Below, piece after piece: positions 6,097-63,903 of a stretch of DNA of 64,000 nucleotides. Location of the stretch: positions 1 through 64,000 of the forward strand of contig JAAYKY010000012.1 in assembly GCA_012522185.1 (NCBI GenBank), in the 5' to 3' direction. Each line of letters begins with the position of its first letter. Position 1 is the first letter of the stretch. Position numbers and translations under genes: made by a program. The notes under the pieces are model-generated. The model was not told the origin of the DNA. It searched no databases and saw only the letters and a list, made by a program, of their open reading frames with translations. The DNA comes from Flavobacteriaceae bacterium. Its GTDB lineage: Bacteria > Bacteroidota > Bacteroidia > Flavobacteriales > Weeksellaceae.

Positions 6097-8715
6097 ATGG
6101 AATTACAAACAAAATACAATCCCCAGATTGTTGAGAAGAAATGGTACGATTACTGGATGGAAAACGAATACTTCTTTTCCAAACCCGACGAACGTAAAGC
6201 TTATACCATCGTAATTCCACCTCCAAACGTCACAGGGGTCCTTCATATGGGCCATATGTTGAACAATACGATTCAAGATGTTTTAATCCGTCGTGCCCGA
6301 ATGAAAGGTTACAATGCTTGCTGGGTACCCGGAACCGATCATGCTTCCATAGCAACCGAAGCAAAAGTAGTGGCTAAACTCAAAGAAGAAGGAATTTCAA
6401 AGTTTGAAATCGGAAGAGAGAAATTTCTCGAACACGCATGGGAATGGACGCATAAACACGGAGGAATCATTTTGGAGCAATTGAAAACTTTGGGTTGTTC
6501 ATGTGATTGGAACCGAACCAAATTTACAATGGACGAGGATTTATCCGAATCAGTAACCAAAGTATTTGTGGATTTGTACAACAAAGGATTGATTTATCGT
6601 GGCTACCGCATGGTGAACTGGGATCCGGAAGCCAAAACCAATATTTCAGATGAAGAAGTTGTTTACCAAGAAAAACAAGGGAAATTATATTTCCTTCGAT
6701 ACCTAATCGAAGGAACGGATGAATACATCGTCGTAGCAACAACACGCCCCGAAACCATTTTTGGAGATACAGCTGTTTGCATCAATCCCAATGATGAGCG
6801 TTATTCATTTCTGAAAGGAAAAAGAGTAATAGTTCCGATTGCAAACCGTGTAATTCCAATTATAGAAGATGAATATGTGGATATGGAATTTGGAACGGGT
6901 TGTCTGAAAGTAACACCGGCTCACGATGTGAATGATTATGAGTTAGGGAAAAAACACGAGCTGGAAATCATAGACGCCATCAATGAGGATGCTACTTTGA
7001 ACCATCATGCCTTGCACTATGCAGATAAAGACCGATTTAAAGTGCGTAAAGAAATTGAATCGGAACTTGAATCAAAAGGATTACTTGAAAAAGTTGAAAA
7101 TTACACAAACAAAGTTGGGACTTCCGAAAGAACTGGAGCGGTAATCGAACCCAAACTATCGGTTCAATGGTTCCTGAAAATGAAAGATTTGGCACAACCG
7201 GCTTTGGAAAATGTGATGAATGACACCATTCAGTTTCATCCTTCCAAATTTAAAAATACCTACAAACATTGGATGGAAAACGTCCATGATTGGAATATTT
7301 CTCGACAATTATGGTGGGGACATCAGATTCCGGCCTTTTATTATGGCGAAGGTCAGGATGATTTTGTAGTAGCTCTGAATAAGCAAGAAGCAATTCAAAT
7401 CATCCAAAGAGAAAGAAATCTGGTGCTGACCGAAGAGGATTTGCGTCAGGATGAGGACGCCCTCGATACCTGGTTTTCTTCTTGGTTGTGGCCGATTTCG
7501 GTTTTCAATGGAATTAATGATCCTGAAAACGAAGAAATCAACTACTATTATCCAACTCAGGATTTGGTAACCGCACCCGAAATTATGTTTTTCTGGGTAG
7601 CTCGAATGATCATCGCAGGCTATGAATACCGAAATGAATATCCATTTAAAAATGTGTATTTCACAGGAATTGTTCGAGACAAACAAGGACGAAAAATGTC
7701 GAAATCTTTAGGGAATTCGCCCGACCCGATTGAGCTTATGAAACAATACGGAGCCGATGGGGTTAGGGTAGGGATGCTACTTTCTTCTCCAGCCGGAAAC
7801 GATTTGCCCTTTGATGAGGAATTATGCGTTCAAGGAAGAAATTTCGCCAATAAAATCTGGAATGCTTTCCGCTTGATCAAAGGATGGGAAGTAGATGAAA
7901 GCTTGGAAACGCCGCAAGAAAATCATTTTGCAGCCGAATGGTTTTATTCGAAATTTAATTCGGAACTAAAAGACATCGAAGCCAATTACGAGAAATACAG
8001 AATTTCCGATGTTTTAATGGCAGTTTATAAATTGATATGGGACGATTTCTGTTCCTGGTATTTGGAAGCTGTAAAACCCGAATTCGGAAAGCCAATCGAT
8101 CGTAAAACTTATGATTCAACCCTTGAGTATTTAGAGAATTGCCTGAAAGTTCTTCATCCTTTCATGCCGTTTTTGACCGAGGAAATCTGGCAGTTGATGG
8201 GGGAAAGAACTACGGAAGAAGCCCTGATTATTTCTGAATATCCTCAAGTGGAGAACTTCTGGGAAGGTGTATTGAGCCAGTTTGAGGTTACCTCTGAAGT
8301 AGTTTCGGGTGTGAGATCCATTCGAAATGAAAAAGGAATTTCACCCAAAGAAAAACTGGAATTATTTGCTGCTGAATCTTCAAAAGAAGCATTGAACATT
8401 GAATTGATTCAGAAACTTGGAAATGTCGAAGTTCAGTTTGCAGAGCAATTCCCAGAAAAAGGATTTAGATTTCGAGTTGGAACCTATGAGTTCTCGGTTC
8501 CGGTAACGGAAAACATCGATATGGAAGCCGAAAAGGAAAAACTGGAAAAAGAGAAAGAATATCTTTATGGATTCCTAAATTCGGTTCGTAAGAAATTAAC
8601 CAATGAAAAATTCGTTAGCGGAGCACCTGAAGCAGTGGTCAATGCCGAAAAGAAAAAAGAAGCCGATGCGTTGGAAAAAATTGCGCAAATCGAAGAGCAG
8701 TTAAAAAACTTTTAA
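6097..8715 (+). CDS. valS: Valyl-tRNA synthetase
   Basis: This 872-residue class Ia aminoacyl-tRNA synthetase charges tRNA-Val with valine in the cytoplasm. It shows the HIGH-type motif HMGH (50-53) after PPPNVTG, and the KMSKS motif (533-537) followed by LGNSPDP. The valine-specific editing domain lies in between ([13 protein letters not shown]), with the WFSSWLWP segment before KMSKS. The C-terminal 65 residues form the basic coiled coil that binds tRNA ([15 protein letters not shown]), typical of ValRS. Length and domain order are normal. The gene is single, with its own promoter and terminator. Confidence 0.98.
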
Positions 8716-8741
8716 ATCAATTTAAATTAAAACAATATTAT

Positions 8742-8780
8742 AACCTCACTCGCTTTTAGAACTTGTGAGGTTTTTTTTAA
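8742..8780 (+). terminator. Terminator of valS
   Basis: An 8-bp stem (8742-8749 with 8765-8772) is followed by a run of eight T, 26 bases past the valS stop. Confidence 0.85.
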
Positions 8781-8815
8781 AATTTTCTGAATGACTTATC
8801 TTTAAATTAAAAATC

Positions 8816-9076
8816 ATGCTTTCTGAAAAACAAATGGAATTAATCCAAATAATTGAATCCAATACAGGGCTTCAATTTCGTGAAAATCCAACTGAAGGAA
8901 ATCTTTGTTTTGCTCAGAATAATTTAGAATTACAAGATGAATATAAGTTAGAATTTAATTTAGCTGATTTAAATCATTATTTTAAATCCTTTTCTGAAAC
9001 TGAGATTTCACTACCCAAGGACTCTACAACCTTTTGGAAATTAGTTAAAAAGGGGAGGGGACTTAAAAAAAAATAA
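8816..9076 (+). CDS. Small protein of unknown function
   Basis: This 86-residue protein is hydrophilic with a basic tail (KKGRGLKKK) and no signal peptide or membrane segment. I do not recognise a family. The ATG is preceded by a near-consensus -7 box (TATCTTTA, 8797-8804), which favours a real gene. It sits between the valS terminator and the Mrp operon and could form a short leader gene of that operon. The function is unknown. Confidence 0.55.
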   Translation: MLSEKQMELIQIIESNTGLQFRENPTEGNLCFAQNNLELQDEYKLEFNLADLNHYFKSFSETEISLPKDSTTFWKLVKKGRGLKKK

Positions 9077-9182
9077 AAACAAACCCTTTTAAATTCAAAT
9101 AATTTCTATGATTTTACTATTTTGGGGGGCTTAAAATTTGTTCAATTTTCGTACTTTTACGAACCCTGAAACAAAAACCTCT

Positions 9183-11489
9183 ATGATAGGCATCTTGATT
9201 TCTGTTTTTGTCTTTGCATTTCTGATTTTATTTTCAGGGCAATTCCTACGTGCCGTATATTACAGATTTTTGGCATTATTTCCATTGGGACTTTTTGTTT
9301 ATTTTGGGTATTACCTGATAAACCTTCAATGGGAAGAAAATCTGATTTTGGCGTACGAATGGATCCCAAGTCTGGGAATAAATATGGATTTTAAAATCGA
9401 TGGACTTTCAGTATTATTCTCGCTTTTGATAACGGGAATCGGTACGCTAATCTATTTCTACGCTGCAGATTACCTCAAACATTCGCCTTATCTCAACCGA
9501 TTTTATTGCTATTTGACGCTCTTCATGGGAGCTATGCTCGGTTTGGTTTTGTCAGATAATCTCATAGGCATTTTCATCTTTTGGGAGCTAACGAGTATCA
9601 GTTCATTTTTCTTAATTGGTTTTAATAACGAAGATGAAAATTCAAGAAAAAGTGCCATGACGGCATTTGCCATTACCGGTTTAGGTGGGTTCTTCTTATT
9701 GTCAGGTTTGCTCTTGATAGCCAATATTACTGGAACTTATTCGATTGCCGAACTATTAAATTCAACGGAATTGATTCAGAATCATTCGCTTTATGTTTTG
9801 ATTTTGATTTTCATTTTTGCGGGAGCTTTTACCAAATCGGCTCAATTTCCGTTTCACTTTTGGTTGCCTGGAGCCATGGCTGCGCCTACGCCCGTTTCGG
9901 CCTATCTGCATTCGGCTACTATGGTAAAAGCCGGAATTTATATTTTGGCAAGATTTACACCTGTCTTAAGTGATGGATTTATTTGGAATAATACTTTAAT
10001 GATTGTAGGAGGAATTACCATGATTTATGGGGCATTCCATAGTATTTTCCGAACCGATATGAAATCCATATTGGCTTATTCTACCGTTTCAGCATTGGGA
10101 ATTATTGTTTTTTTACTTGGAATTGGGACCGATTATGCCATTTATGCTGCTGTTACTTTTATTTTGGTTCATGCACTTTACAAAGCTTGTTTGTTTTTGG
10201 TTACGGGAATTGTTGACCACACGGTTCATAGTCGTGATTTAAATCTCATCGGTGGTCTGGGCAAATTGATGCCGGCAGTGGCTGCTGCAGCTTTTATCGC
10301 ATCACTTTCCAGTGCCGGAGTTCCATTGACATTTGGTTTTTTAAGTAAAGATTTAATTTACGAATCAACTCTTTCCATCGCACAATGGGGGATTTGGCTA
10401 ACCGCTTTGGCTATTCTTACCAATGTTTTCTTGGCTTGTTCTGGCTTTCTTGCAGGAATTAAACCATTTATAGGGAAATTAGGTCAAATGCCGGTTTATT
10501 TTCATAAACCTACATTGTTTCTCTGGTTACCGGTCGTGATTTTAAGTTCACTTTCGCTTTTGTATGGGATTTTTCCTTCTATTCCCGATAATGGAATTTT
10601 AAAATATACCTTTCAAGCTGTTTCGGGACAAGAAACAGGAATTTACCTGAAAGTATGGCATGGCTTCAATACCGTTCTTTTGCTATCGGTTTTGACCATT
10701 GCGCTGGGAATTGCACTTTTTCTCTTGATTCCCTACTTGCGCAAACCCTTGGAAAATGTTTACAAATTGGAGTCCGTATCGCCTCAGAGTTTGACAGAAG
10801 GTTTTGGAGAATTTTTCCGTCGTTTTGCATTTGTTTATACAAGATTGATGCACAATGGATATCTCCGTAATTACCTGATAGTCATTGTGATATTTATCAC
10901 AGTTCTGGTGGGTTATCGATTGTTTACAACCATTGAAATTCAATTGATTACAGAAGATTTATCAGGATTCCGTGTGTATGAATTCGTTGTGTTCATAATT
11001 ATATTAGTTTCAACTTATTATACTTTACGAACGACTTCGAGGTTGACGGCCATTGCGAGTTTGGGGATTATCGGTTATTGTCTCTGTTTGATTTTTGTAT
11101 TTTATGGGGCACCGGATCTTGCGATGACTCAATTTGCAATTGACACTTTGACCGTAGTTTTATTTGTATTGGTATTGTTTAAATTACCTGCATTTTTGCC
11201 ATTCCGCAATAAGAAAATCATTGTTAGAGACGGATTGATTTCACTGGGATTTGGAGGTTTGATCATGTTGATCACGCTTCAATCATTGATTTATCCGGCA
11301 AGTAAAGAAATCAGCCGTTTTTATGCAGAGAACGCTTATGTTCTTGCAAAAGGTAAGAATGTAGTGAATGTTATTTTGGTGGATTTCAGGGGTTTTGATA
11401 CTTTAATTGAAACCATTGTCTTATCCATTGCTGCTTTGGGTGTTTTTGGAATTTTAAAATACAGAGGGATAAATGAAGAGGCCGACTAA
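9183..11489 (+). CDS. mnhA: Mrp/Mnh cation:proton antiporter subunit A
   Basis: This is the large subunit of the multisubunit Na+(K+)/H+ antiporter, homologous to NuoL of complex I, with 768 residues. About 16 or more membrane helices are visible. The NuoL-like core carries the conserved segment FHFWLPGAMAAPTPVSAYLHSATMVKAG, with the lysine-bearing channel helices after it. The C-terminal third has the MbhD-like domain (YGAPDLAMTQFAIDTLTVVL) and the MbhE-like end (NVILVDFRGFDTLIE). The open frame extends upstream to a TTG at 9138. I prefer the ATG at 9183 because the protein then starts directly with a membrane helix and a -7-like box (9152-9159) lies in front of it. It is the first gene of a seven-gene operon. 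Confidence 0.95.
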   Translation: MIGILISVFVFAFLILFSGQFLRAVYYRFLALFPLGLFVYFGYYLINLQWEENLILAYEWIPSLGINMDFKIDGLSVLFSLLITGIGTLIYFYAADYLKHSPYLNRFYCYLTLFMGAMLGLVLSDNLIGIFIFWELTSISSFFLIGFNNEDENSRKSAMTAFAITGLGGFFLLSGLLLIANITGTYSIAELLNSTELIQNHSLYVLILIFIFAGAFTKSAQFPFHFWLPGAMAAPTPVSAYLHSATMVKAGIYILARFTPVLSDGFIWNNTLMIVGGITMIYGAFHSIFRTDMKSILAYSTVSALGIIVFLLGIGTDYAIYAAVTFILVHALYKACLFLVTGIVDHTVHSRDLNLIGGLGKLMPAVAAAAFIASLSSAGVPLTFGFLSKDLIYESTLSIAQWGIWLTALAILTNVFLACSGFLAGIKPFIGKLGQMPVYFHKPTLFLWLPVVILSSLSLLYGIFPSIPDNGILKYTFQAVSGQETGIYLKVWHGFNTVLLLSVLTIALGIALFLLIPYLRKPLENVYKLESVSPQSLTEGFGEFFRRFAFVYTRLMHNGYLRNYLIVIVIFITVLVGYRLFTTIEIQLITEDLSGFRVYEFVVFIIILVSTYYTLRTTSRLTAIASLGIIGYCLCLIFVFYGAPDLAMTQFAIDTLTVVLFVLVLFKLPAFLPFRNKKIIVRDGLISLGFGGLIMLITLQSLIYPASKEISRFYAENAYVLAKGKNVVNVILVDFRGFDTLIETIVLSIAALGVFGILKYRGINEEAD

Positions 11490-11919
11490 CAGACAAAAGT
11501 CAAAGAAATTTGACCTGATTATTTTAAAAACAGCAACGAATTATCTGATTCCTTTACTGTTGATGTTCTCCATTTTTGTATTGTTGAGAGGGCATTACTT
11601 ATCGGGAGGAGGTTTCGTGGGCGGACTGATTGCATCGATTGCTTTCGTTCTTCATTCATTTGCTCATACTACCAAAGAGACACTTTCTTTGTTTCGGTTT
11701 TCGCCTAAAACATTGATCCCGATTGGTTTATCAGCTTCTCTGGTCAGTGCTTTTCTTCCTGTATTTACGGGTGCGCCTTTTTTTACAGGACTTTGGCTGG
11801 AGAAACCCATTGCTGTTATAGGCTCGGTGGGAACGGCTTTGTTTTTTGATGTCGGAGTTTACATTGTGGTGGTGGGAGTGACTTTGACAATTTTATTTAC
11901 GATTAAAGATAATGTTTAA
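11473..11919 (+). CDS. mnhB: Mrp/Mnh antiporter subunit B
   Basis: This 148-residue, four-helix membrane subunit overlaps the end of mnhA by 17 bases. The MnhB hallmark RGHYLSGGGFVGGL is present at about 43-56. This subunit continues the MbhE/MnhB part of the complex and is needed for assembly of the antiporter. The basic N-terminus is cytoplasmic. The length is normal for the family. Confidence 0.95.
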   Translation: MKRPTNRQKSKKFDLIILKTATNYLIPLLLMFSIFVLLRGHYLSGGGFVGGLIASIAFVLHSFAHTTKETLSLFRFSPKTLIPIGLSASLVSAFLPVFTGAPFFTGLWLEKPIAVIGSVGTALFFDVGVYIVVVGVTLTILFTIKDNV

Positions 11920-51846: not shown

Positions 51847-53499
51847 TTAGAATCGAGTAAGTATTCCAAAATGAATTTTTGAATTTCGGAAGTCAAAACT
51901 AGAATCCGATTGTTTACCCACGGCATAACTTAAATTAAATACACCCAATTGAGTAAGAAAAGAAATCCCGGTGCCTAAACCCAAGAGATTTTCATTTAAT
52001 CCAGAAGATTTATTTTCCACAAATCCATAATCGCCAAAAACAGAAATGTAAAATCCATCGTTGGGCATGAAACGGTATTCCAAACTGGCGATCCCATAGG
52101 TCGATGCAAATACACTTTCTTCGTTGAAGCCACGTAAACTCCCAAATCCACCGATTCTGTGCAATTCATTTTCTGAATAAAAATCTTCTTCACCAAACAA
52201 ACCATATCCCTCGATTCTTACCTTTAATAAATGCCGATCCACCAATTTGAAAATATGAAATGCTTCCAAGCCAATTTCATATTGAGGACCACTTAATTCT
52301 GTGAATTCATGGGTTTCCGGATCCAAATCACGGCTTTTCCGAGTCAAAGCTTTGCCCAGCAAATTCAGGGCAGAACGACCTTCGAGCAAACGGTTTTGAG
52401 CGGGTAAAAGATACTCATAACTAAGTCCAATCCCACTTTTATTGAAATCATCATACAATAAAGCCATTTCAGGATGTTCGTCGAGTACGAAATTCGAACT
52501 TTCATAACTCAAATTCAATCCCAAATTTGAATTCATACTGATTTGATAAAACAGTCTTTCTTCGATTTTTGTACTCACGAAAACACTGTCTTTCCGATAC
52601 ATATTGAATTGGGTTTCCGTTCCAATTGGCGAACGGAACAAATAAGGAATTCGAACTTTTAAGTCAAGCGAAGTACTTTTATCGGGCGTTGCAATCCAAT
52701 TTAGCCGAATGCGCTCCATGCCATTGAAGTTATTATTCAGCTCAATCTTTACATTTCCATTCAATTGAAAATCACCATTTGCATCGTTCCCAAAACCTAA
52801 AACTCCATCAAAAAGATTGGATTTAACTTTATTTACATACAAATAAACCGTTGTAGAATCCGTATTGAAAAGAGTTTGAGGTGGACGAGCTTCTTCAATT
52901 AAAGGATTGAAACTCATTCGTTCCGAAATTTTTCGAAGCTCCGATTCATTGTAAATATTTCCTTTTTTTAAACCTAAACCGTAACGAATGTATCCCTTCG
53001 ATAATTTTTCATAACCTTCTACATTTACACCGTCAATTGTCCTCGCACCAAATAATTGTAAATCAAGCGCTATCTGAGCTTCCCCATCTTTGTATCCCAA
53101 AGGATTGATTTTCACTTCTGTAAACGGAAATCCTCTTTCAGCGTATCGGTCAGAAACGGATTGAATTAAGGAATCCAAATTCTTGACTGCAAACCAATCT
53201 TCATTTTGCTGAAAAATCGTATCATTTTTTATCCAAACTTTTTTATACATTTTTCCTTTGTTCAGGTAAACGTTTAGATCCCGCACGGAATCGAGTTTGA
53301 GTGTATAATAGCCAATGGTTTTAAGCGAATCCAAAGTTTGATAAAGAGCAGAATCTTGTGTGATACGTTTCTGAAAATCGGCTTCGTAAATGGATTTTTC
53401 CGGTTTGAAATTAAAAAACTGATAAATGGAATCATTCTTCTCCTGCGAAAAAACAAAGGAAAACAAAAACAACATCCATATAAAAATCCGAAACTTCAC
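51847..53499 (-). CDS. Omp85/BamA-like outer-membrane barrel protein
   Basis: This 550-residue protein has a signal peptide ending FVFSQ. One or two POTRA-like domains (about 60-210) are followed by a 16-strand-type barrel. The barrel carries the Omp85 motif GFGSLRGFNEES (about 430-441), where RGF is the lid-lock motif, and ends in Phe. It is shorter than BamA (about 800-850 in Bacteroidota), so it is more likely a TamA-like or FhaC-like accessory member than the essential assembly protein. The start codon is GTG. It is divergent from selO. Confidence 0.88.
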   Translation of the reverse strand: MKFRIFIWMLFLFSFVFSQEKNDSIYQFFNFKPEKSIYEADFQKRITQDSALYQTLDSLKTIGYYTLKLDSVRDLNVYLNKGKMYKKVWIKNDTIFQQNEDWFAVKNLDSLIQSVSDRYAERGFPFTEVKINPLGYKDGEAQIALDLQLFGARTIDGVNVEGYEKLSKGYIRYGLGLKKGNIYNESELRKISERMSFNPLIEEARPPQTLFNTDSTTVYLYVNKVKSNLFDGVLGFGNDANGDFQLNGNVKIELNNNFNGMERIRLNWIATPDKSTSLDLKVRIPYLFRSPIGTETQFNMYRKDSVFVSTKIEERLFYQISMNSNLGLNLSYESSNFVLDEHPEMALLYDDFNKSGIGLSYEYLLPAQNRLLEGRSALNLLGKALTRKSRDLDPETHEFTELSGPQYEIGLEAFHIFKLVDRHLLKVRIEGYGLFGEEDFYSENELHRIGGFGSLRGFNEESVFASTYGIASLEYRFMPNDGFYISVFGDYGFVENKSSGLNENLLGLGTGISFLTQLGVFNLSYAVGKQSDSSFDFRNSKIHFGILTRF

Positions 53500-55073: not shown

Positions 55074-57737
55074 TTAAAATTTATATCGCAATTGCACCAA
55101 GAAATATCGTCCCAAAACTTCTTTTGTATTGATGATGGTTTGGTTGTTTACCGCATCAAAACTCGAAGTTACGATGGTTTCATTGCCCAAAAGATTTCCA
55201 CCAATCAACGTCAGATAGGTGCTTTTGGCAAGATGAAATCTCAAAGAAGCATTTAAGGATTGATTCTCGTTGATTAAATCCTCGTTTTGATATTGAATTC
55301 GGTACGAATAGTCCGATTGGAAAAGGAATTTATCGGAAATTGCCCAAGCAAATTTCCCGAAAGGGCGCCAAGTAGTGAAGTCGTTTTCTGTCAATGATTT
55401 GAAATCACTTTTGATGTAGTTCAGTCCCAAATCGAATTCTACTTTTCGTCGGATTTTGAATTTGTTAGTCAAAGTATAGGATTGGGTGAAAGTGGAATTA
55501 TTGACCAAATTTGAAATCAATTCATTGTTTTGATCCAAGAAATTAATTCGGGTAAAATAATCCGAATAATTGATATTTCCATTTATAAATAAGGAATAAA
55601 TCCTTGAAAATCTTTTACTTCCGCCAAAATAAACATTCAAAGACTGATCGTCTTCTGGGTTGTTTATCAGGGAATTAACCTGTGGGAATGCACCTAAATT
55701 GGACGCGCTCTGTATGTTGTCCATACTTCGGTTGTAGTTAGCTCCGACATAAAAATTCAGAAATTTAAAGGAATTGAAATAATTATAACCGATGCTTGCG
55801 CTATGGTACAAAGACTCTCTCAATGCGGGATTTCCACGGAAAATCGAATAATAATTTCGGATTTCATAATTGCCCGATAAATCGGTCAGATTGGGAAGTT
55901 TGTATTCTTGTTTATAGCTTAAATTTAGATTTTGTGAATTATTGAATTTGATTTCTGCTCTCGCATGAGGTAGGATTTTCGTGAACTCCAATTTGTTTTC
56001 ACCTCCGATGAAATTTATTTTTTCACGGAAGTTATAAACGCCGACTCCTAAGTCGAATTTCAGAATGCCAATTTTTTTGGTATAAGTTAAATCCGCATAA
56101 ATCTCTGTGTAATTGAAATCAGAATCGGTTTGAAAAAATTCCTGCTGAATGAGTGAATTGTCTTCGTATATATTATTTTCCAGATTTTGCCAGCTGAAGT
56201 TGCTTCCTGCTTTGATTCTAAGATTGCTCGTATTGGTCAACAAATGATTGTAGATCCCGTAAATCTGAAGGTTTTGCGTGTTTAAATCCCGATTTTGGCG
56301 CAAATTATAAAAACTAAGGCTGTCAATTATCAGAGGAACCACATCGGAATTGATGAATAAATCCGGCTGATCGTTCGAAATTTGGTGGCGAACATAAAAA
56401 CCGATGTTGTGATCACGTCCGACTTTTCTGATGTAGGAAAGGTTTTGACGAAGACTAAAACTTGTTTTCTCATTTAGATTATTTCGATATCCGGTCGAAA
56501 TATCATTCAAATGCGTATCGGCAAATTGTTCGTTTTCATTTTCCAGGTAATTAAAGCTCACGCGGTATTTGAATTGTGATTTAGAGTCGGGCGAATAATC
56601 CATTCGAAATCTTCCCAAAGTCGAAAGCAGATGTTGATCGTTCATCTGTTCGTCCCGGTAATTCATTCCGGCACCGATTCTTTCTTGCGTAGATCTGAAA
56701 TTCAAATTGTGATTATTGAAAAGTACAAATCCATTGGTATATACCTTTTTATTGGGTTCAAATCCAAAATGCAAAGCACTCAAAAAAGCGTTCATATCGG
56801 TTGCATCTTGTGCTGTTCCCAAGGAAATAGAGTTGGATTCTTGTCGAAGTGAGAAACTGCTTCCTTCTTCCATCAGCTCTGAAATTCCTCCGAGAAAGGA
56901 AAAATAATCTTCGTAAGTGAAAACTTCTTTTCCAAATGTATTGTAATCTGCGATGAGAGTTCCGTCTGTTTTGGGGCTGAAATAAAACAATTTGGTTTGT
57001 ACGTCCGAATGTTCATGCGCATCGCCGCCCAGAGTGGCATTCCCAAAAATAAGGCTTTTTTTATCTTCTTTGAGTTCGATGTTGAGCATGGCTTCCTCAT
57101 CGTCTGAAAGCGAGTTTGCAAAAGGGTTGGCTTTGAACTTTCGGTTCAACTGAATTTTGTCAATGGCATCTGCGGGAAGGTTTTTGGTGAGTAATTTGGT
57201 GTTTCCGCCGAGTACTTCACGATCGCCTACTTTTATGGTTTTGATTTCCTTTCCTTCGTAATAGACTTTTCCGTTTTCTACCTGAAGTCCGGGTAGTTTT
57301 TTTAGTAAATCTTCCAGGTTTTCATCGGCCGCCGTACGGAAAGAGTCGGCATCGTATTCGATGGTATCTCCTTTGACTGTAATGGGTTGTCTGGCTCGGA
57401 TGACGGCTTCTTGTAGTGAAACCGCAGCTCTTTTCATTTGAAAACGCACGGATTTACTACGATCCATTTGGATGGTTTCTGCATAGGATTCAAAATCGAA
57501 ATGTTCGGCTTCTACTTCATAGGTTTCTCCGCAAGGCAAATCCAAAACAAAGGCTCCTTCGGTATCGGTAAAGGTAAAAGCAACGCCTTCATTTTTGGAA
57601 TTGAAAGCCGAAACCGAAGCGTCGAAAACCGGTAAACCGATGCTGTCCCGGATTTCGCCACGAAGTTTACAGGTTTCTTGGGCGGTTGAAATTTGAAATA
57701 TAAATATGGTTAAACCAAAAAGTAGAAACTTTTTCAT
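55074..57737 (-). CDS. Outer-membrane beta-barrel protein, TonB-receptor fold
   Basis: This 887-residue protein has a signal peptide ending ISTAQ. A carboxypeptidase-regulatory-like beta-sandwich follows at about 22-110 (LRGEIRDSIGLPVFDASVS). A plug-like domain is at about 120-230 (LQEAVIRARQPITVKGDTIEYDADSF, LLKKLPGLQVENGKVYYEG) and a large barrel ends in Phe. It belongs to the Bacteroidota group of TonB-receptor-like proteins with a TQQ-type plug and no SusD partner. These often neighbour GLPGLI genes, as here. The ligand is unknown. It is probably the last gene of the peptide-GLPGLI operon, 75 bases after the previous gene. Confidence 0.88.
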   Translation of the reverse strand: MKKFLLFGLTIFIFQISTAQETCKLRGEIRDSIGLPVFDASVSAFNSKNEGVAFTFTDTEGAFVLDLPCGETYEVEAEHFDFESYAETIQMDRSKSVRFQMKRAAVSLQEAVIRARQPITVKGDTIEYDADSFRTAADENLEDLLKKLPGLQVENGKVYYEGKEIKTIKVGDREVLGGNTKLLTKNLPADAIDKIQLNRKFKANPFANSLSDDEEAMLNIELKEDKKSLIFGNATLGGDAHEHSDVQTKLFYFSPKTDGTLIADYNTFGKEVFTYEDYFSFLGGISELMEEGSSFSLRQESNSISLGTAQDATDMNAFLSALHFGFEPNKKVYTNGFVLFNNHNLNFRSTQERIGAGMNYRDEQMNDQHLLSTLGRFRMDYSPDSKSQFKYRVSFNYLENENEQFADTHLNDISTGYRNNLNEKTSFSLRQNLSYIRKVGRDHNIGFYVRHQISNDQPDLFINSDVVPLIIDSLSFYNLRQNRDLNTQNLQIYGIYNHLLTNTSNLRIKAGSNFSWQNLENNIYEDNSLIQQEFFQTDSDFNYTEIYADLTYTKKIGILKFDLGVGVYNFREKINFIGGENKLEFTKILPHARAEIKFNNSQNLNLSYKQEYKLPNLTDLSGNYEIRNYYSIFRGNPALRESLYHSASIGYNYFNSFKFLNFYVGANYNRSMDNIQSASNLGAFPQVNSLINNPEDDQSLNVYFGGSKRFSRIYSLFINGNINYSDYFTRINFLDQNNELISNLVNNSTFTQSYTLTNKFKIRRKVEFDLGLNYIKSDFKSLTENDFTTWRPFGKFAWAISDKFLFQSDYSYRIQYQNEDLINENQSLNASLRFHLAKSTYLTLIGGNLLGNETIVTSSFDAVNNQTIINTKEVLGRYFLVQLRYKF

Positions 57738-57812
57738 TCATTAAGATTTGATTGATTAGTAAGAAAAGAAGTTGAATTGTTACAAAATTCAGATCATATT
57801 GTAGTTTGAGTT

Positions 57813-58571
57813 CTAATCTTTGTCAATTCCACCGTCATACATTTCTTTCATTTTTTGCATTTGTTTTTCGTTTTCTTCTTTGAATTCTTTCTGATTGACA
57901 AGTTTTCCTTTTTTGGGACGAGTAATTTTTGTTTTTTCATTTCCGGTCTGGATGGAAATTGCGGTTGTGGTTTGGGTTTGTTCTCCACCGGTTTTAGTTT
58001 TGGAGGTTCTTTCTAATTTTAAGATTAAACCCGGTAATCCGCCATAGACATCGGGTCCACTTTTGAAACTCAATCGAGGCGCATACCAAGCGACTAAATT
58101 CGTAGTGCTATCCACTTCGGCGGTTGCTTTTCGAACTTCATATCCTAAAATCTCTTGGGATTCACGGGTGATTTTCCAGTCATAGGTTTTTACAGAATCC
58201 TGAATGAGGTAATCCACATTCCACGAATTGGCTTCTCGCAAAACTAAATTTTCTTTTAAATTTTTATAAAGTTTGCCTCTTTGTCCAAGACTTATGTACA
58301 CCCTCGAACCTTCGTCTTTTTGCTGGTTGTTGATTCTTTCCTGGTATTCATAAATGGATTCATCGGGCGTCATTATGAGTTGATAATAAGATGGCGTTTC
58401 CATAGCGATTTTCAGTGCGTCTTGCCATTCTTTGTCTGCTATATTACTATCTGAAAAGGTGGTTATATTATCCATTTCCATTTTGGTAAAGGATTCGTAT
58501 TCGACGATGAGTTTGTCTTGTGCGTTTAGTAAAATTCCGGCGGCGAATAGAATTAAAAATATTTTTTTCAT
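57813..58571 (-). CDS. GLPGLI family protein (single domain) 4
   Basis: This 252-residue exported protein has a signal peptide ending LLNAQ. The family core is ILGYEVRKATAEV then VAWYAPRLSFKSGP and GGLPGLILKLE (about 170-183). The C-terminus is MYDGGIDKD. The GLPGLI family (TIGR01200) is confined to Bacteroidota and has no known function. The position usually held by Cys in GY-x-C-x-KA is Val (EVRKA) here. The frame extends upstream into the neighbour's 3' end; the ATG before the signal peptide is used. Confidence 0.9.
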   Translation of the reverse strand: MKKIFLILFAAGILLNAQDKLIVEYESFTKMEMDNITTFSDSNIADKEWQDALKIAMETPSYYQLIMTPDESIYEYQERINNQQKDEGSRVYISLGQRGKLYKNLKENLVLREANSWNVDYLIQDSVKTYDWKITRESQEILGYEVRKATAEVDSTTNLVAWYAPRLSFKSGPDVYGGLPGLILKLERTSKTKTGGEQTQTTTAISIQTGNEKTKITRPKKGKLVNQKEFKEENEKQMQKMKEMYDGGIDKD

Positions 58572-58629
58572 TTGATTGATTTTAGGAATTTTGATTTGTT
58601 TGGAAACGAAAATAGGGAATTTTAATGAA

Positions 58630-59376
58630 TTAGTCTTTGTCCACCGCGTCTTGTTCATTCCACATTTGGTTTCTTTTATCATTTGCTTCTTGGAAAATTC
58701 CGTCAATTTCTTCAGCTTTGATCTGGGTGCCCTGATCGGGTTTGATTATTTTTAATTTTTTATCTGATTGTCTGATGGATTCTGCGAGAAAACGTTCGTG
58801 ATACACCATGGTTTTGGAAGATTTTTCTGCTTCGAGAATCAATCCGGGTACCCCCCAATAGTCGCTCGGTCCATTTGAGATAGCCAGCTTTGGCGCATAC
58901 CAAACCGTATAAACCGCAGTAGAATCTTCGGCCGTTGCTTTTCGAACCTCGAATCCCAAAATATCCTTTTTTTCTTTGGTAATTTTCCATTCCTGCCTTT
59001 CCAATTTATCCAAAGAAAAATACTTCTTCCCATAAACGTTAAAATCTTTTCTTTGGGTTGAATCCGATAAATTTTTATAAGTAGTGCCAAATCCGGCAGG
59101 AGCGACCTTTATCACGGCAGCATTTTGATCCTGATTATTGTTGATTTTCTCCACATAAGTAAAAGAAGATTCTTTGCCGGAAATCAACATTTTATATTCA
59201 GCCGGATCGGGTTCTTCATTTTGTTTAAGCTGATCTCTTAATCCATCGTTAATGAATTCTTGTCTGATTTCATCAGGAAGTGTTTTTCTGACAACGGCCT
59301 GATACGTAATTTCTAAATTCTGAGCATTTAGAAAAAGGCAGAACAAGGCAATAAAAAAGACGGTATATTTTTTCAT
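58630..59376 (-). CDS. GLPGLI family protein (single domain) 3
   Basis: This 248-residue exported protein has a signal peptide ending FLNAQ. The core is ILGFEVRKATAE, TVWYAPKLAISNGP and WGVPGLILEAE, where the motif reads GVPGLI instead of GLPGLI. It ends AVDKD. Spacing to its neighbours is 46 and 58 bases on the same strand. It shares an 18-base identity around its stop codon with the next gene upstream, a sign of tandem duplication. The function is unknown. Confidence 0.9.
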   Translation of the reverse strand: MKKYTVFFIALFCLFLNAQNLEITYQAVVRKTLPDEIRQEFINDGLRDQLKQNEEPDPAEYKMLISGKESSFTYVEKINNNQDQNAAVIKVAPAGFGTTYKNLSDSTQRKDFNVYGKKYFSLDKLERQEWKITKEKKDILGFEVRKATAEDSTAVYTVWYAPKLAISNGPSDYWGVPGLILEAEKSSKTMVYHERFLAESIRQSDKKLKIIKPDQGTQIKAEEIDGIFQEANDKRNQMWNEQDAVDKD

Positions 59377-59422
59377 GGTAATGGAGTTTAATTCTGAAGG
59401 CAATATCGAAAAATTTATTGAA

Positions 59423-60124
59423 TTAGTCTTTGTCCACGCCGCTATTGTACAGTTCATGAAATCTCTGGTCTTGTTCTTTATGAAATTCTTGGTACTCTTT
59501 CAGGCTCATTCGTTTTCCTTTTTTTGAAAGGGGAGGAGTTTTCAATTCCTTATTTTTAACTTCAATTTCGGTTGCTGTATATCTTTTAACTTCTAAGATG
59601 TCACCATAGTCCGTTCTGATTTCTAATTCCAAAATCAATCCGGGTAGTCCGCTATAGATTTCCGGTCCATGCTTGGCAGGAAGGTTTGGGCTGTACCACG
59701 CAGTTATTTCTGTGATATCGTTCAATAATGCTGTTGCTTTTCTTACAGAAATATCTAAAATGTTTTTTGTCTCCTTTTCTAATTTCCACGGATATTCAGG
59801 CAAATTGTCTTGAAGTATAATGTCTTGTCCATAAATATTTATATTTTCCGTGAATTCATTATTCTTTAAATCTTTCTGAAGTATGCCTGTTTTTCTAATA
59901 AACCCATAGGATTTCCCTAAGTCTTGATCGTTTTGAATTCTTTCGATGTACTCGTATAAAGAATAGTTTTCATTGAGAGAGAGTTTAAAATAGGTATAAA
60001 CTCCTTCCTCTTCCTTATCGTCTTCGATTAAAATTGGAAGTACTTGATAAGTGATTTCCATTGTTTCCTGAGCCGTTGCTTTAAAGGAAAACCACACAAA
60101 AAAGAAGGATAAGAAGGGTTTCAT
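59423..60124 (-). CDS. GLPGLI family protein (single domain) 2
   Basis: This 233-residue exported protein has a signal peptide ending ATAQ (about 19). The core is ILDISVRKATALL, TAWYSPNLPAKHGP and SGLPGLILELE, and it ends SGVDKD. The canonical cysteine is again replaced (SVRKA). It lies 54 bases after the double-domain gene and is probably co-transcribed. The function is unknown. Confidence 0.9.
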   Translation of the reverse strand: MKPFLSFFFVWFSFKATAQETMEITYQVLPILIEDDKEEEGVYTYFKLSLNENYSLYEYIERIQNDQDLGKSYGFIRKTGILQKDLKNNEFTENINIYGQDIILQDNLPEYPWKLEKETKNILDISVRKATALLNDITEITAWYSPNLPAKHGPEIYSGLPGLILELEIRTDYGDILEVKRYTATEIEVKNKELKTPPLSKKGKRMSLKEYQEFHKEQDQRFHELYNSGVDKD

Positions 60125-60178
60125 ATAATGAAGATTGAAAGTTTACATTTAATAAATTAAGGTAAGATTGTTTTAATT

Positions 60179-61588
60179 TTAGCCCTTATCAACACCGTAG
60201 TTTTCCAACTCAAATTGCTTATTATAAATCTCTTTTTCTAATTCATCGAATTCTTTACTTGTATAATAGGATTCAGCTGGTTTTAGTTTGTTTAATTCGA
60301 AGTTTTTCCCATTTTTCTTTATTTCTATAATTTCGTACCGATTAATCTGGGAAGAGGATTCTGTTATTTGTTTTTCTTCGACTTCCAAAATCATTCCGGG
60401 TAATCCATAGTATAAAAGTGGTCCATCAGGAATAGGGATATCAGATGTGTACCAAACAGTAATTTGGTATTTGTTGTCATCGGTTACAGTGAATGCTTTT
60501 GTGCAATTATAACCCTGAATATTTTTGAATTCATTTCTGGAAATTACCCAATTAAAATTAGGGATAGTATCTTTAACTGAATAAAGCTTTCCATTTATTT
60601 CTTCTTCCTTTATAAATGTTTTATTCGAGAGATCTTTATTGTATTTTGCATTAGTAAGGAAAATCGTATAACGCGAATTACTCGGTTGGCTATTGTCTAT
60701 CCTATCGAGATCATAAAATGTTGATTGATAGTTTTTTGTACATAATCTACTATAATTAGGAACGCTCTCTATATCATTTTTTATATCGTTGGATTTAAAC
60801 TCAGTATAATATTTATAGTCCAAACAATAAGAGTCCTGAACTAAATTATCTTGAAATTTGTAAACTTCTATCGACTTGGAAGTATCTATGTGAATATCTG
60901 TATTGTACTGGCTATAGATTTGTTTCATTAGTAAATTATAATTAATGTTAGCCTCTCTAATTGCTGTATCCCAATTTAGTATCTTACGTGGGTCTGGTTT
61001 GTAATTTATTTTCAATTCCGGTGCATTATTCACAATTAATTTATTTGCTTGATAATTCACTCTGCCCTTGACTTCCAGTATCATTCCGGGCAAACCATTA
61101 AATTTCCAGGGACCATCATTGATAGGAATTTCCGGAGCAAAGTAAACCTCGTATTTTCTTCCTTTGTATGAGGTTGTGGCATATGTACAAGTATATCCAA
61201 GTATCTCTTTGGTTTTACTTTCGTCTATTTCCCATACAAATGAATCAATTTCCTCTTCTATAATTGCGTTTGTCAGATATAAAATATCGGGATCTGAATA
61301 CATCTTGCCAATAGAGAAATCCTTGTAATGGTTTTTTCTTTTTTTTATTATATCTCCTCTTAACCGGTTTTCCTCGTCAAAATAGGAAGTGGTCTTGTCG
61401 ATTATATTATAATCGTAGTAAAAATAAGACTGATTGTTTTCATTTATATATTTACATTGAATAGTGTCATTTCCATTTTCTTCTAAATTGTCTATTCTCA
61501 AAAACTCTGCATAATAATTATGTTGAGAGAATAGAGAAATTGGTAATAGAATAAGAAATAAAATTAAAGACCTATAATAATTGCTCAT
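60179..61588 (-). CDS. Double-domain GLPGLI protein
   Basis: This 469-residue exported protein has two full GLPGLI domains in one chain. Repeat 1 has ILGYTCTYATT, VYFAPEIPINDGP and NGLPGMILEV (about 165). Repeat 2 has IQGYNCTKAFT, VWYTSDIPIPDGP and YGLPGMILEV (about 394). Both repeats keep the cysteine that the three single-domain neighbours have lost. The signal peptide ends LFSQ (about 22). It ends YGVDKG, like the neighbours' VDKD. It is the second gene of the operon, after the peptide gene. The function is unknown. Confidence 0.9.
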   Translation of the reverse strand: MSNYYRSLILFLILLPISLFSQHNYYAEFLRIDNLEENGNDTIQCKYINENNQSYFYYDYNIIDKTTSYFDEENRLRGDIIKKRKNHYKDFSIGKMYSDPDILYLTNAIIEEEIDSFVWEIDESKTKEILGYTCTYATTSYKGRKYEVYFAPEIPINDGPWKFNGLPGMILEVKGRVNYQANKLIVNNAPELKINYKPDPRKILNWDTAIREANINYNLLMKQIYSQYNTDIHIDTSKSIEVYKFQDNLVQDSYCLDYKYYTEFKSNDIKNDIESVPNYSRLCTKNYQSTFYDLDRIDNSQPSNSRYTIFLTNAKYNKDLSNKTFIKEEEINGKLYSVKDTIPNFNWVISRNEFKNIQGYNCTKAFTVTDDNKYQITVWYTSDIPIPDGPLLYYGLPGMILEVEEKQITESSSQINRYEIIEIKKNGKNFELNKLKPAESYYTSKEFDELEKEIYNKQFELENYGVDKG

Positions 61589-61610
61589 TTCATAAAATTT
61601 AAGTTAGTAA

Positions 61611-61646
61611 TTAACAACAGAGGTTTAATTTAATCCCTGTTGTTAA
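61611..61646 (-). other. Perfect inverted repeat between peptide gene and GLPGLI genes
   Basis: Ten-base arms TTAACAACAG (61611-61620) and CTGTTGTTAA (61637-61646) enclose 16 bases. No T-run follows on the minus strand, so it is not a classical terminator. It may stabilise or process the upstream peptide mRNA, or cause partial termination. Confidence 0.5.
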
Positions 61647-61661
61647 AATTCAATTTACCTG

Positions 61662-61889
61662 TTAATCAGCCGCTAAAGCCGCCTGTTTTGCTTTGTTCAA
61701 TGCCGCTTGAGCAGCTGTACAATCAGCTCCTGTACCACAGTAAGTATTTGCCCCTACATCTTCACATATAGTACAAGTTAGAACCTCCTCGTCCTCGGCT
61801 TTCTTGATTTCATCTTTAGAAACACTATTACTTGCCATCGCAAAACTTCCCAGTAGCCCAAAGCTACATAATAAAACTAATTTTTTCAT
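61662..61889 (-). CDS. Small secreted four-cysteine peptide
   Basis: From the ATG at 61889 this is a 75-residue precursor with a signal peptide ending FAMA (about 18). The mature peptide of about 57 residues has an acidic front (KDEIKKAEDEE), a Cys core (CTIC at 39-42, then Cys51 and Cys57) and an Ala/Lys-rich helix tail. I recognise no named family. The open frame continues in phase to an ATG at 61970 that would add a second, lipobox-like signal (IIFLSMVFISC). It is the first gene of the probable GLPGLI operon and is divergent from the TPR/AraC regulator. Confidence 0.75.
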   Translation of the reverse strand: MKKLVLLCSFGLLGSFAMASNSVSKDEIKKAEDEEVLTCTICEDVGANTYCGTGADCTAAQAALNKAKQAALAAD

Positions 61890-61983
61890 GTTAAACTCGT
61901 CATCATTTATACAAGAAATAAATACCATTGACAAAAAGATTATACAAGCTGTTTTTTGAATTTGATGCATAGATCTTTTTTTA

Positions 61984-62011
61984 CAAATATTTAAATTAAA
62001 TCACTGACAAA
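61984..62011 (-). promoter_or_regulatory. Probable promoter of the peptide-GLPGLI operon
   Basis: On the minus strand, TTTG (62008-62011), a 16-base spacer and AATATTTG (61984-61991, one mismatch to TAnnTTTG) predict a start near 61977. The imperfect -7 box fits an activator-dependent promoter. Confidence 0.45.
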
Positions 62012-62032
62012 CAAATAGTTGATGTTCGCTTT

Positions 62033-62067
62033 CCTGAATTGTTACGGAGCAATTCAGGAATTGTTAC
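62033..62067. promoter_or_regulatory. Candidate AraC-type operator: direct repeat plus palindrome
   Basis: GAATTGTTAC occurs at 62036-62045 and 62058-62067, a 22-bp period (about two helical turns). Overlapping it, CCTGAATTG (62033-62041) and CAATTCAGG (62050-62058) form a perfect 9-bp inverted repeat. The element lies 21 bases upstream of the predicted -33 box of the peptide promoter, where AraC-family activators usually bind. Confidence 0.55.
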
Positions 62068-62184
62068 AGGAAGTTCAAGTAAAAGATTTGGGTTCAGGGA
62101 ATTAAAAAATGAAGAAAATTTGGAGAGAAAATGTATTTTACAAAAAAACTTCATAAGTTTAGGTACCAATTAAACTGATATAGG

Positions 62185-63903
62185 ATGAAAAATCTTGTGA
62201 ATTTTTTGCTGTTTTTAGCTTTTTTAAACTTGCCCGCATTTCTTTTTGCACAAAAAATAACGGATTTGGCACAAATGTCTTATGAGGAATTAAACAATAA
62301 GTATAATAATTTGGATAATAAGAAAGCAGAAGCAATTCTGTATGTGAATGCCTATATCTTAAAAGCGAAAATTGAAAATAATCCACTTCGTTTATTTTAT
62401 GGCTATAAAAGTGCTGCAGCTTTTTCTAACGATATAAAAAAACTTGCCTACGTGGACAGTATGGTTTGGGCAGCTGAAAACACAAAGGACAAAGATATTA
62501 TAGGCAGTGCCTGGCTTTCCAGGGGAGTTAATCTTTACAATCTCAGAAATTATACTTCAGCATTGGATGCGTACAATAAAGCCGAAGAACATTTAAAAGA
62601 AACGAAAGATGCCTATCTGAAATATAAAGTTTTGTATAATATTGCTTTGGTAAATGCTTATTTGGGACATCATGAAATAGCCATTTCAAAGTTTGAAGAA
62701 TGCAAAATACATTTTTATAATTCAATTGAAACATCAACGCATCCAAATGAAGAATACAACAACCGTAAATATTACCTTTTTACGCTCCACCGTTTGGCAA
62801 ATCTTTATCAATCCCTCGGACAATTAGGAAAGTCAAAGGAATTGATAGAAACTGGAATGAAAGAATCTTCTGATACAGAATTTTGGTACGAGAGAGCATT
62901 GTTGGAGAAAACTTTAGCGGTTCAGAAGTTTTACGAAGGAGATTACAAAATGTCTATGGGAATTTTAAAATCTCTTGTTCCTCTTTTCACAAAGGAAGAT
63001 AAATTTGACTGGGTCGCTGTTTCTTATTTTTACATAGGGAAGAATTTAGAATCCTCGCAAAAAGACAATGAAGCGATAGAATACTTCCAAAAAATAGACT
63101 CGATTTTTCAGAAAAGAAACTACCTCAATCCTGAGCTAAGGGAAGCTTATGAAATCTTACTGACTCATTATCGAGCCAAAGACAATCGAGAAAGCAAGTT
63201 GTATTACATAGAACGCTTGATTGAATTGAGCAAATTGATGGAAAAAGATTTTGTGTACCTCAATTCAACTTTGCACAAAAAGAAAGAATTTGAAACCGCC
63301 AATTTAATTTTGGAGAAAAAACAAATAGAGAAGAGTAGTCAATCTCAATCACTTTTTTATCAAATTTTGATTGGAATAGCAGGAATTTTAGTGATAGCAA
63401 TCTCTGTTAAATTGTATGTAAGCCACAGAAAAAACAAGCAATTAAAACTCTTGTTAGACCGTCCAAAAATAAAGTCTCTCACAGAAGAATTGACCGAAGA
63501 AAAGTCCATAGAATCCAATAAATTACCCATTGAAAAAATCAATGAACTGCTCGAAAAATTAAAAAGTTTTGAAAGAGAAAAAGAATTTAATGAGCCGGGA
63601 CTTACGATTGAAATCCTGTCCAAAAAATTGGAAACAAATAGTCGTTACTTATCTTTTGTGATAAACAATCATTTGGGAAAAAACTTCAATGCCTATCTAA
63701 ACGAACTCAGAATAAACCATTTGATTGACGAACTTAAATCGAATCCGTCCATGAGAACCTTGAAGATGGATGAATTGGCCAAAAAATCGGGTTATGCCAA
63801 TCGGCAAAGTTTTTCCCGAGCATTTCGCTCAGTAACCAAAGTTTCACCTGCTTACTTTATTGAGAATATATCAGAATTCAAAGAAGAAGAAATCTTTGTT
63901 TGA
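62185..63903 (+). CDS. Membrane-spanning TPR-AraC transcriptional regulator
   Basis: This 572-residue protein has an N-terminal signal/anchor (about 1-22, ending LFAQ). A large periplasmic helical region follows at about 25-385 with TPR-like repeats (YTSALDAYNKAEEHLK, HHEIAISKFEECK, DNEAIEYFQKID). One membrane helix is at about 391-411, and a cytoplasmic AraC-type double HTH at about 465-565 ends in AKKSGYANRQSFSRAFRSVTKVSPAYF. This one-component design, a periplasmic sensor directly joined to a DNA-binding domain, is common in Flavobacteriia. By position its target is the divergent peptide-GLPGLI operon. A near-consensus -7 box (TAAGTTTA, 62154-62161) lies upstream. Confidence 0.9.
   Translation: MKNLVNFLLFLAFLNLPAFLFAQKITDLAQMSYEELNNKYNNLDNKKAEAILYVNAYILKAKIENNPLRLFYGYKSAAAFSNDIKKLAYVDSMVWAAENTKDKDIIGSAWLSRGVNLYNLRNYTSALDAYNKAEEHLKETKDAYLKYKVLYNIALVNAYLGHHEIAISKFEECKIHFYNSIETSTHPNEEYNNRKYYLFTLHRLANLYQSLGQLGKSKELIETGMKESSDTEFWYERALLEKTLAVQKFYEGDYKMSMGILKSLVPLFTKEDKFDWVAVSYFYIGKNLESSQKDNEAIEYFQKIDSIFQKRNYLNPELREAYEILLTHYRAKDNRESKLYYIERLIELSKLMEKDFVYLNSTLHKKKEFETANLILEKKQIEKSSQSQSLFYQILIGIAGILVIAISVKLYVSHRKNKQLKLLLDRPKIKSLTEELTEEKSIESNKLPIEKINELLEKLKSFEREKEFNEPGLTIEILSKKLETNSRYLSFVINNHLGKNFNAYLNELRINHLIDELKSNPSMRTLKMDELAKKSGYANRQSFSRAFRSVTKVSPAYFIENISEFKEEEIFV

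Follow-up and report, generated by a model that had tools for sequence, protein, structure and literature searches.

Gene content of the locus

The window analysed here is a 64,000-nucleotide stretch of contig JAAYKY010000012.1 (positions 1 to 64,000, forward strand) from the assembly GCA_012522185.1 of a Flavobacteriaceae bacterium (Weeksellaceae in GTDB). The system under study is a run of six minus-strand genes that begins with a small secreted cysteine peptide, continues with four GLPGLI proteins and ends with an outer-membrane barrel, and that diverges from a tetratricopeptide repeat (TPR)-AraC regulator gene (Table 1). This layout had been laid out in a preliminary description made from the sequence alone, and its positions and identities were borne out by the gene calls and by the Pfam and NCBIfam models. 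Comparison across genomes showed by computation that the peptide belongs to a large and rapidly diverging set of peptides built from a leader and a Cys-bearing core, each of which is encoded directly before a GLPGLI gene of one clade and inherited together with it.

The gaps between the six genes measured, from peptide to barrel, 73, 54, 46, 58 and 75 bases, and the scan of these five gaps agreed with the claim that no strong terminator separates the genes, as it detected no terminator-like site on the minus strand; such sites were no commoner than in shuffled sequences. All four GLPGLI proteins scored above the curated cut-offs of the GLPGLI family (TIGR01200 / Porph_ging PF09697), with 121.7, 124.1, 106.7 and 206.7 bits against a TIGR01200 cut-off of 50, and the curated model recognised 11 places in this 2.5-Mb genome, of which 5 were at the locus.

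Table 1. Positions of the genes and sites of the locus in the window
Feature	Position	Strand	Details
Secreted 4-Cys peptide	61662..61889	-	75 aa; no Pfam/NCBIfam family
Peptide signal and core	~61668-61775 (core)		Sec-type signal at ~residues 1-20; predicted beta-hairpin + helix core, residues 39-74
Double GLPGLI protein	60179..61588	-	469 aa; TIGR01200 E 4e-61, two stretches
Single GLPGLI protein, clade A	59423..60124	-	TIGR01200 E 1e-30; clade from domain tree
Single GLPGLI protein, clade A	58630..59376	-	TIGR01200 E 7e-36; counterpart in a congener adjoins the barrel (L142, 9706-10455)
Single GLPGLI protein, clade A	57813..58571	-	TIGR01200 E 4e-35; clade from domain tree
Outer-membrane barrel	55074..57737	-	N-terminal carboxypeptidase-regulatory-like domain and plug-like region; PF14905 E 2.5e-16, PF13620 E 1.2e-9
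TPR-AraC regulator	62185..63903	+	Divergent from peptide; N-terminal signal/transmembrane segment; TPR_2, TPR_12, TPR_1 and HTH_18 above cut-off
Candidate operator between regulator and peptide	62031..62067		15-nt direct repeat and inverted repeat
Half-site TGTAACAATTC, third copy, in the gap before the barrel	57774..57784	-	

An in-frame ATG at 61970 would extend the peptide to 102 aa. Its mature part contains four Cys, and its homologues share the pattern C-x2-C ... YC ... C-x2-A. The core was modelled by AlphaFold2 from a shallow alignment as a beta-hairpin followed by a helix (pLDDT ~94, residues 41-70), and a fold search with the peptide returned nothing above chance level, its matches being to parts of double-stranded-RNA-binding domains (E ~1). 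A match of the peptide to the Shiga toxin B model (NCBIfam E 0.03, 14 of 201 bits) fell mostly in the signal region and was dismissed as chance, and a weak match on contig C31 of the same genome was discarded too, with no recognisable peptide gene at that place. A second cassette of peptide, GLPGLI gene and barrel was located on contig C36 of this genome (L046, ~6600-8000), where the peptide frame carries an in-frame TAA and the GLPGLI gene and the barrel look intact. Next to the locus, an outer-membrane protein with POTRA repeats (PF07244) is encoded at 51847-53499 of the window and is, as far as seen, unrelated to the peptide system.

Pairing of the peptides with GLPGLI genes

Searches with the single peptide sequence gave nothing significant in five congeners and nothing in plasmids, and the link between peptide and GLPGLI emerged after these searches, from reading upstream of GLPGLI genes. 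In regions fetched solely for their similarity to the double GLPGLI protein, small leader peptides with at least two Cys were encoded within 200 bp upstream of 43 of the 121 GLPGLI genes, against 6 of 611 other genes (odds ratio 55, p about 1e-30). Furthermore, a profile of seven window-type peptides was run on 296 genomes of the family and the top 30 loci were examined. All 24 loci with a Cys-bearing peptide, 18 of them outside the profile, had a GLPGLI gene immediately downstream in the same orientation, and none of the six loci without the Cys core did (signal-only look-alikes and one 1-Cys open reading frame near a contig end). The failure of the first search in the five congeners, together with the fast divergence of the peptide sequences, would fit an unrelated small gene in a meaningless gene order; this explanation is contradicted by the enrichment, by the forward search and by the co-variation given below, and was considered extremely improbable.

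Direct homologues of the peptide precede GLPGLI genes in Profundicola, Halpernia, Vaginella and further relatives, and the pairing reaches Flavobacteriaceae, Saprospiraceae, Hymenobacter and Bacteroidales. The preliminary description had made its proposal of an envelope system for the handling of peptides, in which the small peptide would be either cargo or signal, depend on conservation of the peptide beside GLPGLI genes in related genomes. This conservation was found, and it supports the proposal. The same description had regarded a peptide as first gene as less usual; it is instead the normal arrangement in a large clade of these genes. GLPGLI genes were also seen on contigs labelled as Gracilibacteria and Staphylococcus metagenome-assembled genomes (MAGs; L213, L239), which are probably misassigned Bacteroidota contigs, and tandem GLPGLI genes were observed directly behind a large membrane protein that by reading resembles an M56/BlaR1-type peptidase (L092, L123). 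Additionally, a GLPGLI subclade (L070, L072, L076, L105) is preceded by longer secreted proteins of 148-162 aa, in which a 6-Cys segment, C..C...W.C.D.PT..G..LC..DC..EC, occupies the C-terminal part.

Clade A, which holds the single GLPGLI proteins of the window, and B, the peptide-linked part outside A, were defined on a tree of 132 GLPGLI domains. Most peptide-linked domains fell outside clade A, and the peptide link was clustered on the tree (30 changes against 38 in shuffles, with none of 500 shuffles as low) without forming one clean clade. The double GLPGLI protein joins a B-type N-terminal domain to an A-type C-terminal domain, and the same joining was found in Profundicola and in a relative. 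The five-domain GLPGLI expansion of the preliminary description was correct as a count, with two of the domains in the long protein, and the double protein was reinterpreted as a fusion of a peptide-linked and a non-peptide clade. Compared with the GLPGLI family in general, one clade is here tied to cognate exported peptides and the double protein brings two clades together. Conserved C-terminal tails were observed by clade, with a GVDKD/GIDKD-like form in clade A, present in each of the four window proteins (57813-61588), and a PYNPIELE-like form in another. Such clade-specific tails could serve to dock the proteins on the barrel or on some other partner.

The similarity between peptide cores rose with that between their GLPGLI partners over 74 pairs (r = 0.83, and 0.56 where GLPGLI similarity was below 0.5), values in which shared species history may have a part; 0 of 2000 permutations reached either correlation. 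In tandem arrays the leaders were identical (L102) or 82-93% identical (L275), while the mature parts shared 22-38% identity and the GLPGLI partners had also diverged. The array of L275, in a Bacteroidales MAG (7354-11654), consists of three tandem pairs of a Sec-exported peptide and a GLPGLI gene. The peptide and the GLPGLI protein of the window are very probably cognate partners.

In one B subclade, the core C..W..V..pCGa.Y.LC..NY follows, depending on the species, either a Sec signal or a bacteriocin-type double-glycine leader (NF047798 leader_Chryseo). Between L074 and L122, the leaders were unrelated, the cores differed at 7 of 36 positions by alignment count and the GLPGLI proteins were 71% identical. 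These exchanges indicated that the core, and not the leader, is what is kept, and since it stands behind either kind of leader it must act outside the inner membrane. The double-glycine leaders of GLPGLI-linked peptides matched NF047798, TIGR04139 and TIGR04149, and the Bacteroidales precursors before GLPGLI genes were TIGR04149 peptides, radical SAM-modified members of the ribosomally synthesized and post-translationally modified peptides (RiPPs). In L114 (2000-10500), five different double-glycine peptides are each followed by their own GLPGLI gene within a grasp-with-spasm cluster, a type that corresponds to branch 5 of the graspetides in PMC8939145. This cluster, shared with L197, also holds a VKOR-like protein, the maturases TIGR04192 and TIGR04193, a C39-type ABC exporter and an HlyD-like gene, and a divergent TPR-AraC gene stands at its edge, as in the window. 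The order of divergent TPR-AraC gene, peptide and GLPGLI gene was found again in L070 (Chryseobacterium edaphi), together with a SPASM fragment and exporter genes.

The window locus resembles the RiPP and bacteriocin-like loci of Bacteroidota (NF047798, TIGR04139, TIGR04149, TIGR04192/TIGR04193) in that precursors with these leaders, too, lie directly before GLPGLI genes and in that a divergent TPR-AraC gene flanks one such cluster. It differs from them in the Sec-type signal of its peptide and in the absence of a maturase and a C39 exporter among its genes. PF14905 barrels have been reported earlier as neighbours of graspetide loci (PMC8939145). GLPGLI was not named in the searched parts of PMC8939145 and PMC10352776, and 'cluster 23' in the consulted part of the former was rejected as a candidate for GLPGLI, as it fitted poorly (often lipoprotein-like, with a conserved His and Arg, and from candidate-phyla bacteria). 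Within the open-access literature, subscription journals being outside the scope, no description of the pairing of peptide and GLPGLI was found; in the portions of that literature searched, GLPGLI was merely listed among regulated genes where it was named, and nothing was found by model accession.

Conservation of the barrel and of the regulator

The matches to PF14905 and PF13620, both above cut-off, place the barrel in a TonB-receptor-type family with an N-terminal extension. Plug-like sequence was visible in it and Pfam gave no plug match; among solved structures, none matched it by sequence. Copies of 69-82% identity were present in four of five congeners, and a PF14905 barrel gene immediately followed GLPGLI in 24 of 78 Weeksellaceae loci and in 40 of 79 loci across the phylum, often with overlapping genes. 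In a sister species, a barrel with 82% identity to that of the window and a single GLPGLI gene adjoin the same cyanophycin-synthetase-like gene that follows the regulator in the window, and the peptide, the double GLPGLI protein and the AraC gene are absent from this site, so that the peptide module is accessory to a conserved barrel-GLPGLI unit. The view of the six genes and the regulator as one system thus stood for the barrel and one GLPGLI gene, which are conserved in the genus, and failed as a description of one ancient unit.

Nutrient scavenging or a response to envelope stress by the barrel and GLPGLI, with the peptide captured secondarily as an accessory, would account for the peptide-free barrel-GLPGLI pair, which is conserved within the genus and phylum-wide, and GLPGLI genes are among the direct PhoP targets in Riemerella (PMC9603813). 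Nevertheless, this explanation accounts neither for the co-variation nor for the near-exclusive pairing of the peptides with clade-B GLPGLI, and was judged quite improbable.

In the gap between regulator and peptide, a 15-nt sequence is directly repeated at a period of 22 bp, a spaced arrangement that occurs nowhere else in the genome, and the repeat overlaps a perfect 11-bp inverted repeat. The element TGTAACAATTC occurs at five sites in 2.55 Mb, two of which belong to the locus, one at 62058-62068 in this gap and the other in the 75-bp gap before the barrel. From the sequence, there is good evidence that one regulator would touch both ends of the locus via these putative half-sites. No 11-nt direct repeat with an 18-24-bp period was detected in the TPR-AraC loci L114, L125 and L293, and the one found in L070 was of chance quality; the single-stranded DNA fold of the gap was not unusual (z -0.5) and the Rfam scan of the gap was empty.

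Outside the window, GLPGLI was found within 1.5 kb of TPR-AraC homologues in 1 of 27 newly fetched loci, and most pairs of peptide and GLPGLI had no such regulator beside them. Its role as a general, conserved part of the system was therefore rejected; of the earlier claim, the divergent placement at the window stands, and the regulator was retained as a local link. The same counts bear on the possibility that the peptide is a pheromone, taken up or presented by the barrel and GLPGLI and sensed by the TPR-AraC protein, which would then induce the locus. Divergent TPR-AraC genes in L114 and L070, a nearby co-oriented one in L125, genes of TPR/response-regulator type just upstream in L188, and half-sites before both the peptide and the barrel would suit a pheromone, but the scarcity of the regulator beside the other pairs makes it improbable.

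Proposed handling of the peptide

The GLPGLI domain was predicted to take the fold shared by LolA, RseB and the bowl of PNGase F-II. The AlphaFold2 model of the N-terminal domain of the double protein (pLDDT 89.3, shallow alignment) had as its closest folds the PNGase F-II bowl (Z 13.7, 166 residues), VioE, MucB/RseB (~9) and LolA (~8); the LolA chains aligned with Z of about 7-8.5 and an rmsd of 4-6 Å, which the tool graded as middling, and no LolA sequence family was matched. The N-terminal bowl of PNGase F-II (PF22252) was recognised above cut-off in three of the four window GLPGLI proteins and just below it in the fourth. Bowl and half-barrel proteins include several that hold ligands in the periplasm. 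In predicted fold, GLPGLI is like RseB/MucB and the PNGase F-II bowl and, to a middling degree, like LolA/LolB, and unlike LolA and RseB it is paired with a peptide gene and not with lipoprotein sorting or sigma-factor control.

In our preferred reading, for which we consider the chances about even, the locus produces a bacteriocin-like peptide for export, a GLPGLI protein acts as its cognate carrier in the periplasm, and the barrel lets it through the outer membrane. The core, exported by Sec, would fold in the periplasm, probably with disulfides, and would be bound by the N-terminal GLPGLI domain as a dedicated LolA-like carrier. The C-terminal or the separate clade-A GLPGLI domains may then accept it or dock it to the outer membrane, where the TonB-type barrel would pass it out, as the TonB-dependent transporter Oar secretes the protease PopC in Myxococcus (PMC6434023). 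Like Oar, the barrel is a TonB-type outer-membrane protein proposed to export a periplasmic polypeptide; unlike PopC, the cargo is a tiny Cys peptide, and its export by this barrel is what we infer. The TPR-AraC protein probably controls the peptide and the barrel via the TGTAACAATTC sites; it may also detect the peptide or the state of the envelope. Carriage of the peptide by GLPGLI to the barrel is possible, with the balance tilted slightly towards doubt. Use of the peptide against bacteria, rather than for example in signalling, is most likely, since the leaders and the neighbouring genes match bacteriocin and RiPP loci.

Several observations weigh against this reading. GLPGLI genes without a peptide comprise nearly all of clade A and most of those in Bacteroidales, and because they are so many the function of the family may be wider. 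Most proteins with the LolA fold are lipid carriers, and there are sensors and enzymes of similar fold. The Sec-type leaders were called by a simple hydropathy rule (by eye as well for the window peptide), which has no double-glycine leader and no NCBIfam leader match. Neither an ATP-grasp/SPASM maturase nor a C39/PCAT exporter was detected among the genes of the locus scanned with Pfam and NCBIfam, and by those criteria it is not a RiPP cluster. The possible part of species history in the co-variation and the sister-species site without the peptide belong here as well.

Finally, intact GLPGLI genes stand beside broken peptides (L046, the cassette on C36, and L078), which carriage fits less well and which makes immunity the strongest rival. 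The peptide would then be a bacteriocin, sequestered in the periplasm by GLPGLI as its immunity protein, and the barrel its receptor or exit. One-to-one pairing with hypervariable peptides, tandem arrays of differing pairs, the bacteriocin-type leaders of a subset of the peptides, and GLPGLI pairs without a peptide in L048, as for orphan immunity genes, all agree with such a role. Nevertheless, immunity proteins are usually small, so that a 250-aa protein of LolA fold to which a second domain is fused would be atypical, and the many peptide-free GLPGLI-barrel pairs, including those with overlapping genes in Bacteroidales, would stay unexplained; immunity was thus regarded as unlikely.

With respect to the family, we propose tentatively, and with doubt prevailing, that GLPGLI is a dedicated peptide-carrier family of Bacteroidota, working as a LolA/LolB-like relay in which clade B would pick up the peptide and clade A would hand it to the TonB-type barrel, and serving peptides exported by Sec as well as RiPPs exported by PCAT. 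GLPGLI proteins are abundant in Bacteroidota and functionally uncharacterised, and the tie of one of their clades to hypervariable exported peptides is a first strong clue to their function, which it makes directly testable. It also exposes many unannotated small secreted peptides, many of them with Sec leaders that are missed by the current leader models for RiPPs and bacteriocins, and points to a possible route for such peptides through the outer membrane.
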